Source: Geothrix limicola (GTDB lineage: Bacteria > Acidobacteriota > Holophagae > Holophagales > Holophagaceae). From it: DNA of 64,000 nt. The notes under the pieces are model-generated. The model was not told the origin of the DNA, searched no databases, and worked only from the letters and a program-made list of their open reading frames with translations. Below are positions 12,424-13,355 of this stretch, piece by piece; positions within the stretch are counted from its first letter, which is position 1, and each line of letters begins with the position of its first letter. Where the stretch lies: the NCBI RefSeq assembly GCF_030268085.1, contig NZ_BSDE01000001.1:1-64000 (forward strand), read 5' to 3'. The position numbers and the translations under genes were made by a program.

Positions 12424-12879
12424 ATGCCAAACATCGCCTCTGTCCTAAAAGAAGAAATCCTCCGGCTGGCCCGCAAGGAAGTCCGGACTGAAACCGAAGG
12501 GCTCAAGAAGGCCTCAGCCCAGTACCGCTCGGACATCGCCGCGTTGAAGCGCCGGATCGCCACGCTGGAGAAGCAGCTTTCCCACTTTGAAAAGAAAGGC
12601 GCCACCAAGGCCGCGGCCCCGGCGGAGGGCGAAGCAGCCCCTCGCATCCGTTTCAGCGCCAAAGGCCTGGCGACCCAGAGGCAGAAGTTCGGGTTCTCCG
12701 CCGCCGAGATGGGGGCCCTCGTGGGCGTGTCGGCCCAGACCATCTACAACTGGGAGGCCGGGAAATCCCGTCCCCGGGCCCAGCAGCTGGCGGCCCTCGG
12801 AACCCTGCGTTCCATGGGCAAGCGGCAGGCCAAGGCCCAGCTGGCGGCCATGCAGCCCGAAGAGCAGCCGAAGGATTGA
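12424..12879 (+). CDS. Helix-turn-helix (XRE-type) protein with N-terminal coiled coil
   Basis: A 151-residue protein. Residues about 15-60 are heptad-like and charged (coiled coil, LKRRIATLEKQLSHFEKK), followed by an Ala/Pro linker. Residues about 85-130 form an XRE helix-turn-helix (LATQRQKFGFSAAEMGALVGVSAQTIYNWEAGKSRPRAQQL). It is likely a DNA-binding dimer; its targets are unknown. The start ATG follows AGAGGAGA. The 245 bases upstream (12179-12423) hold no gene and are strikingly A+T-rich for this window, unlike the gene itself, so promoter density or a recent insertion boundary is possible. A strong terminator follows at 12903-12929, which makes it a single-gene unit. Confidence 0.8.
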   Translation: MPNIASVLKEEILRLARKEVRTETEGLKKASAQYRSDIAALKRRIATLEKQLSHFEKKGATKAAAPAEGEAAPRIRFSAKGLATQRQKFGFSAAEMGALVGVSAQTIYNWEAGKSRPRAQQLAALGTLRSMGKRQAKAQLAAMQPEEQPKD

Positions 12880-12902: not shown

Positions 12903-12929
12903 AGAGGGCCGCGGACGCGGCCCTCTTTT
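12903..12929 (+). terminator. Intrinsic terminator after the XRE gene
   Basis: A perfect 11-base stem AGAGGGCCGCG/CGCGGCCCTCT with a two-base loop is followed by TTT, 23 bases after the XRE stop codon. The complementary strand lacks a T run, so it works for the plus strand. Confidence 0.8.
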
Positions 12930-12930
12930 C

Positions 12931-13121
12931 TGGTGCACCCGACTGGAATCGAACTGGTCCGGCTGCGCCGTCCCCGGTCTCGCTCCCGACAGCCCACCGG
13001 GCTGTCTCCGCGATCCCACTCGACCCTAGATCCCTGCAACGCATGCGTTGCGGGGGCTGGTTCGATTCCCTCTCCACCGAAGATCGGAGCCAGGTTATCG
13101 CCCTGGCTCCGGTCTTCTGGG
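12931..13121 (-). repeat. tRNA-end-capped repeat unit 1
   Basis: The unit begins (plus strand) with 24 bases equal, except the last, to the 3' end of tRNA-Arg including CCA (12931-12954). A G+C-rich block with the hairpin GACAGCCC-ACC-GGGCTGTC follows, then an extra 34-base stretch with the palindrome GCAACGCATGCGTTGC (13036-13051), an inverted T-arm-like CTGGTTCGATTCC, and the hairpin at 13079-13117 that also follows the real tRNA. Unit 2 (13122-13278) is the same without the extra stretch. Confidence 0.75.
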
Positions 13122-13278
13122 TGGTGCACCCGACTGGAATCGACCTGGTCCGGCTGCGCCGTCCCCGGTCTCGCTCCCGACAGCCCACCGGGCTGTCTCC
13201 GCGATCCCACTCGCTGGTTCGATTCCTTCTCCAACGAAGATCGGAGCCAGGTTATCGCCCTGGCTCCGATCTTCTGAG
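13122..13278 (-). repeat. tRNA-end-capped repeat unit 2
   Basis: This is the second copy of the unit, 157 bases long and ending exactly where the tRNA-Arg gene begins (its CCA at 13279). The first 23-24 bases again match the tRNA 3' end (one C/A difference near the inner edge). The remainder matches unit 1 almost base for base, apart from the missing 34-base palindrome block. Confidence 0.75.
13236..13274 (-). terminator. Hairpin directly downstream of tRNA-Arg
   Basis: A perfect 16-base stem GAAGATCGGAGCCAGG/CCTGGCTCCGATCTTC with a seven-base loop lies five bases after the tRNA CCA end on the minus strand. There is no T run, so termination or 3' processing is inferred from position. Unit 1 carries a copy with one G-T wobble. 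Confidence 0.6.
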
Positions 13279-13355
13279 TGGTGCACCCGACTGGAATCGA
13301 ACCAGCGACCTTTGGCTTCGGAGGCCAACGCTCTATCCAACTGAGCTACGGGTAC
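13279..13355 (-). tRNA. tRNA-Arg (anticodon CCG)
   Basis: A 77-base cloverleaf on the minus strand. The acceptor stem GTACCCG pairs with CGGGTGC (one G-U), the D arm is GCTC/GAGC, and the anticodon stem TTGGC/GCCAA encloses CTCCGAA with CCG at positions 34-36. The variable loop is AGGTC, the T arm is GCTGG-TTCGATT-CCAGT, and the discriminator A is followed by an encoded CCA. It reads CGG codons, which are common in the genes here. Two copies of its 3' end lie downstream. Confidence 0.95.

Follow-up and report, generated by a model that had tools for sequence, protein, structure and literature searches.

Why should the 3' end of a tRNA gene, complete with its CCA, recur twice at short intervals downstream of the gene itself? 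The question is raised by tRNA-Arg(CCG) of Geothrix limicola, which lies on the reverse strand at 13279-13355 of a window of 64,000 nt (the whole stretch of DNA analysed), encodes its CCA, and is recognized both by ARAGORN and by Rfam model RF00005 (68.6 bits). Within the window, the last 22 nt of this gene are found at just three places, 12931, 13122 and 13279. As the original prediction had it, the gene is followed on the same strand by two units, a proximal one of 157 bp from CCA to CCA (13122-13278; repeat family D2, spacing 157) and a distal one of 191 bp (12931-13121; repeat family D1, spacing 191). Each closes with a stretch that repeats the 3' end of the tRNA exactly and in sense orientation, here called the T copy, comprising 22 nt of T-arm, acceptor and CCA in the proximal unit (13122-13143) and 24 nt, tRNA nt 53-76 including CCA, in the distal unit (12931-12954). 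A hairpin with a 16-bp stem, directly 3' of the tRNA and inside the proximal unit (13236-13274; inverted repeat I4), was also correctly seen to have a counterpart in the distal unit (13079-13117; I5), which differs by one arm base, and the extra 34-base block of the distal unit was confirmed at 13022-13055, where the palindrome GCAACGCATGCGTTGC is joined to GGATCTAGGGTC.

The sense copies account for only part of the anatomy, and two further components had been missed: an antisense copy of the T-arm, designated T', with which each unit starts, and a 68-nt core that is identical in the two units (reverse strand, 13145-13212 and 12954-13021). In the proximal unit T' is GGAATCGAACCAGCGA (13211-13226; inverted repeat I2, 16 nt, 100%), the exact antisense of the tRNA T-arm TCGCTGGTTCGATTCC. 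In the distal unit it is GGAATCGAACCAGC (13056-13069; I7), exact over 14 nt and separated from the core by the 34-nt block, which we regard as an optional extra arm; four further genomes have a similar block at the equivalent position within T', including behind tRNA-Asp. Read on the tRNA strand, the layout of a unit is therefore T' antisense, conserved junction core, and T copy, the last in some instances extending through acceptor and CCA. The array is bounded by the intrinsic terminator (12903-12926, forward strand) of a convergent upstream gene (ORF 12424-12879, forward strand). Its coding potential is confined to overlapping mechanical ORFs, and the 64,000-nt window (G000:C1:1-64000) yields no match to integrases of Pfam family PF00589. 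A terminator-like U-tract site on the reverse strand between tRNA-Arg(CCG) and the units was not found in the window; with no U-run following the post-tRNA hairpin, read-through from the tRNA into the units is plausible. We hold with moderate confidence that the units are structured RNA modules on the 3' side of the tRNA ("tRNA tails"), built like the rtT repeats of Escherichia coli, whose T' may serve as a switch or which may give rise to a small RNA. Repeat-driven amplification, one of the explanations first offered, does account for copy number within a single array: tandem copies could have arisen by recombination between direct repeats of the T half and the hairpin, which would suffice to yield two units rather than one.

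The array is not an isolated occurrence. When its own genome was searched with the array, related elements came to light downstream of the tRNAs Pro, His and Arg-TCT; their core is that of the window array, and their ends match each host tRNA. Ten elements from several genomes (alignment A1) were the basis of a covariance model, R1, that defines class 1. In the window, R1 recognizes the three-way-junction element of the proximal unit, comprising T', core and the start of the T copy, at 13136-13226 (97.9 bits), and that of the distal unit at 12945-13034 (76.7 bits). The model detects 10 elements in the own genome and, within the genus Geothrix (Holophagaceae), has matches in 43 of 47 genomes; among 247 genomes of the phylum, its matches fall only within the own taxonomic family. 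A pattern search through 84,980 species, each represented by a single genome, returned 18 stretches, all from organisms designated Geothrix, Holophagaceae or Acidobacteria bacterium. A second class, with a different core, was seen with Ser, Cys, Glu and Gly elements (alignment A5, model R2), and R2 matches 59 of 93 genomes of the taxonomic class, in nine genera of the family Holophagaceae. The class-2 T copy usually starts exactly at tRNA nt 57, as seen in about ten loci, and extends to CCA, and at the Cys, Glu and two Ser loci the terminator that follows it is duplicated as well; many class-1 T copies are devoid of acceptor and CCA. Class-2 elements also lie behind what appears, from the sequence GGACGTGGGTTCRACTCCCACCACCTCCACCA recognized by eye, to be the 3' end of tmRNA (ssrA), in three loci (L215, L218 and L220, approximately 1350-1510); in L215 and L220 an additional, different structured unit is interposed between the apparent tmRNA 3' end and the class-2 tail.

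A census of the 450 nt downstream of each of the 46 tRNAs in the own genome identified a clear antisense copy of the tRNA's own 3' half (score of at least 13) in 13 of them, placed 1-56 nt after CCA: three Pro, two Arg, Val-GAC, Met, Asp, three Ser, Cys and Glu-CTC. Inspection added four with divergent or decayed forms (His, Gly-CCC, Leu-CAA and Ser-GGA), so that tails follow a minimum of 13 tRNA genes out of 46, and probably 17. Some tRNAs and some species are without one, which argues that the tail is dispensable.

The affiliation of these elements with tRNA genes is close. For 133 of 152 class-1 elements an intact tRNA on the same strand is present no more than 800 nt upstream; 9 run into contig ends, and 8 occur behind displaced tRNA 3' halves or in arrays of T halves; tRNAs or tRNA 3' halves thus precede the element in 141 of the 143 cases that contig ends do not truncate. 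The two exceptions, which have no tRNA explanation, are a single inverted pair in a metagenome-assembled genome. This pair (L156, 541-786) flanks one hairpin, has no tRNA in the stretch retrieved around it, and may be an assembly artefact. Identical units far from any tRNA, which would have made the tRNA similarity incidental, were not encountered among the 152 elements. Six of the eight displaced cases follow tRNA 3' halves that begin at the anticodon loop (Pro, Thr, fMet and His), one follows a Pro T half, and one lies in a His T-half array. Examples of the first kind, in which tail elements come after the truncated tRNA, are found at L184, L143, L182 and L176 (Pro-TGG, Thr-CGT, fMet and His). 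Such displaced halves probably mark the distal boundary of genomic islands whose integration in the anticodon loop moved the original 3' half away from its gene, and since the displaced halves bring the tail along, the tail must be older than the displacement. This bears directly on the suggestion that the units are scars of serial island integration and excision. Genuine scars of that type are probably present in relatives of this organism, and tRNA 3' ends in direct repeat are what they would leave behind; a T' in antisense, or a conserved core that covaries, is not expected of them, and tails that predate the displaced halves cannot readily be their product. We find this origin for the units scarcely credible.

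The element folds as a three-way junction whose outer closing helix is formed by T' with the T copy. In an alignment of 146 distinct sequences (A3), 94.9% of cells pair and 28 of 33 pairs are changed on both sides, with a covariation score of 0.405 against 0.159 for shuffled alignments, a value attained by none of 500 shuffles; A3 was fitted to the model, and these counts are biased toward the structure to that extent, yet the unfitted set A1, likewise examined for covariation, supports the same structure. Covariation was seen for the long arm of class 2 as well. In class 1, G.U pairs greatly outnumber A.C mismatches (273 versus 49), also when the one conserved U.G pair is set aside (139 versus 49) and in the outer helix (91 versus 21), counts to which the bias toward the structure applies likewise. 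This excess, together with the covariation, argues that the structure belongs to RNA of the tRNA-sense strand.

T' is faithful to the tRNA that it follows. It is complementary to nt 49-61 of the host tRNA, and in 80 of 83 first units the best match is to the tRNA's own isotype, with a tie in one more. Across these 83 loci a Watson-Crick match to T' is present in 81-83 at each of nt 49-53 and in 65-81 at nt 54-61, where the remaining cells are mostly G.U, and the match declines at nt 62-65. Between species, within one isoacceptor, T' is nearer to the tRNA of its own species in 21 comparisons and to that of the other in none, with 3 ties, although the loci share ancestry and these coevolution counts are not independent of one another. 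All three T-stem variants of tRNA-Pro(TGG) are tracked by T', and at orthologous Arg(CCG) loci where the tRNA has GAATCC both T' and T copy match it, the three having changed together. The correspondence is better in the unit that adjoins the tRNA (12.4 of 13 positions) than in later units (9.1 of 13). In class 1, the T copy provides no pairing partner for nt 49-52, and T' is for this reason most likely to pair with the tRNA itself.

Such tracking could stem from gene conversion between inverted repeats instead of selection. In its fullest form this alternative makes T' the product of fold-back copying of the tRNA 3' half, kept matched thereafter by template switching (quasipalindrome correction), with the core as a passenger loop. 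The near-perfect tracking of tRNA changes agrees with it, and conversion that depends on distance would also leave the best match in the unit nearest the tRNA. Such a process predicts neither the covariation of the core helices nor the excess of G.U over A.C, and it gives no account of why identical core types recur behind unrelated tRNAs. Nor does it anticipate that positions of T' lacking a Watson-Crick match are mostly G.U opposite U54, U55 and U60 (29 of 249 cells), C.A opposite A being rare (at most 4 of 188). We therefore judge a neutral inverted repeat to be unlikely, and retain the interpretation of the units as RNA modules.

How the modules came to occupy so many loci is partly answered by their cores. 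For 83 locus representatives, the nearest-neighbour core is found behind a tRNA of the same anticodon in 39 cases (11.5 when shuffled, maximum 21) and in the same genome in only 1 (2.3 when shuffled). Nearest cores that share anticodon but rarely genome imply that the elements are mainly inherited in place, and recent spreading within genomes is disfavoured by the same comparison. Inheritance of this kind, in company with the covarying modules, the coevolving T' and a window free of PF00589 matches, leaves successive excisions of integrated elements, one of the alternatives first offered, without support. It also weighs on the idea that the units are minimal mobile elements, non-autonomous and inserted at T-loop nt 56/57, which restore the tRNA with their own 3' half and are moved by an integrase supplied in trans. 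Class-2 T copies running from nt 57 to CCA in about ten loci, the direct repeats of T half and terminator that flank some units, the shared cores behind many tRNAs and tmRNA, and the existence of related loci without an element would all suit that idea; beyond the in-place ancestry of most cores and the absence of a PF00589 match from the window, mobility alone would not provide a T' that matches the new host tRNA. On balance we consider it quite improbable. Likeness to known integrative elements that target tRNA genes (tyrosine-recombinase att sites) is limited to the duplicated tRNA 3' end, the tails differing in their size of 157-191 bp, their lack of integrase or cargo, their antisense T', their covarying RNA core and their inheritance in place. 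As to the presence or absence independent of locus history that marks such elements, the picture is mixed: element-free loci do exist, yet cores are mainly inherited with the locus. In a separate observation, two integrase-family matches occur at G000:C9:77133-80351, 1-3 kb from a divergent pair of tRNA-Ser genes with class-2 tails.

What RNA modules of this design might do is suggested by partition-function folds of the tRNA together with the first unit, in which about 15 base pairs form between T' and the tRNA. Addition of the tail lowers the predicted probability of the acceptor stem from 0.996 to 0.000 in the window, and from a mean of 0.40 to 0.00 over 83 loci. The minimum free energy of the joined RNA lies below the sum of its parts by 15 kcal/mol in the window, 10 at the Cys locus and 12 at E. 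coli Tyr, and in the folds of all three the distal T copy re-pairs with the 5' acceptor strand of the tRNA. These are equilibrium folds of unmodified RNA, in which co-transcriptional order, tRNA modification and tertiary structure are ignored, and for this reason the predicted capture of the T-arm by T' might fail to occur in cells. A scheme consistent with the predictions is that tRNA and tail are co-transcribed, and that in the read-through precursor T' would base-pair with the T-arm and disrupt the cloverleaf, a full T copy re-pairing with the 5' acceptor strand; once the tRNA has folded and been cut off, T' would pair instead with the T copy, and the tail would become a compact RNA. The tail could then act as a cis-antisense switch on tRNA maturation, yield a small RNA with a CCA end, or do both. 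Tentatively, we extend this to a family of such switches, cis-antisense RNAs that act on tRNA and tmRNA genes, in which T' would be selected to pair with its own T-arm and would govern the folding or processing of the precursor, the T copy being a competing partner or a substitute 3' end, and of which E. coli rtT may be the sole member studied so far. Such a switch, if real, would be a cis mechanism on single tRNA genes that acts at the level of folding.

Since 1991 rtT, an RNA from the tRNA-Tyr operon of enteric bacteria, has stood as an isolated oddity. It is a stable RNA, about 171 nt in length, that is released from the transcript of the tRNA, and to our knowledge it has no clear function. 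In E. coli tyrV/tyrT, 178-bp repeats have the layout T' (GGGGAAGGAT), hairpin core and AATCCTTCCCCCACCACCA, with annotated rttR ending at that CCA, and in the Rfam RtT model (RF00391) the T':T helix is the outer stem. The Geothrix tails correspond in being tandem units behind a tRNA, each of which finishes with a copy of that tRNA's 3' end including CCA (19 nt in E. coli), in forming the outer helix with a 5' strand antisense to the 3' half of the tRNA, and in a joined fold that captures the tRNA 3' half. The earlier idea that extra CCA ends may generate tRNA-like 3' fragments in the transcript fits this precedent. The class-1 arm displays GGGA-UCGC/GCGA-GACC with facing GA/GA and covarying flanks in most members, C-G replacing one G.A in some; a tandem GA motif has been reported for RtT (PMC7657543, PMC8250186), where it is framed by a covarying helix (PMC7657543). 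A possible link of RtT to the stringent response, and a resemblance of rtT to BIMEs, have also been mentioned (PMC2965389).

There are differences as well. The tails have two other core sequences, they follow many tRNAs and tmRNA whereas rtT is confined to tRNA-Tyr in E. coli, and class-1 T' spans nt 49-61 of the T-arm whereas that of rtT corresponds to the acceptor side. RF00391 had no match above its cut-off (45 bits) in the 47 genomes of the genus; the E. coli control was positive. The window region, together with ten other tail loci, gave no RF00391 match with E<=1, and a general Rfam scan of these sequences returned only tRNA and sub-threshold noise, the sX4 matches overlapping tRNA-Ser. 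The best sub-threshold RF00391 matches in the genus, which recur at the same part of the model (E 0.0015-0.08, model positions 33-111; G006:C4:317960, G015:C2:286348, G001:C2:248114 and others, L187-L193) have no tRNA within about 1 kb and were not counted. The tails are thus a variant of the rtT kind, which share its build but fall outside RtT as defined by its sequence model. Within the literature on bacterial tRNA-linked repeats that was surveyed, mostly outside subscription journals, nothing besides rtT was found. REP and BIME sequences resemble the tails as structured intergenic repeats, but the tails are tied to tRNA or tmRNA genes, oriented by strand and equipped with ends specific to the host tRNA; the dispersal irrespective of neighbouring gene type that typifies REP/BIME is not seen, as judged on class-1 neighbours rather than on a REP consensus. 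The small RNAs rrA, rrB and rrF, situated between the dual terminators of E. coli rRNA operons (PMC8144298), offer a precedent for read-through only, being derived from a stable-RNA transcript that passes its first terminator; they belong to rRNA operons and, as far as they are described there, do not carry a copy of the upstream RNA in either orientation.

That roughly a third of the tRNA genes in one genome carry rtT-like modules suggests a wider family of tRNA-attached RNAs, which may control precursor folding. A layout equivalent to rtT in another phylum, behind many tRNAs and tmRNA and with a T' that tracks its host, also provides a strong comparative handle on tail function. Other repeats linked to tRNAs were noted in passing. 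Downstream of tRNA-Leu(GAG), a tandem repeat of about 85 nt (CCGGGGGTTCCTCGCTGCGCGAACACCCCCGG...) follows the terminator (L132) and is not of the tail type. A further repeat, with the form TTTCGCAGGATTGCGAAATAGGACGG...GGCACA...CACCA, lies behind tRNA-Leu(TAG) and tRNA-Met (L118, L198 and L201); at L201 this TTTCGCAGGATTGCGAAATAGGACGG repeat is in tandem, and its GCCGCAGGC and CCGAAGGG hairpins resemble those of E. coli rtT.
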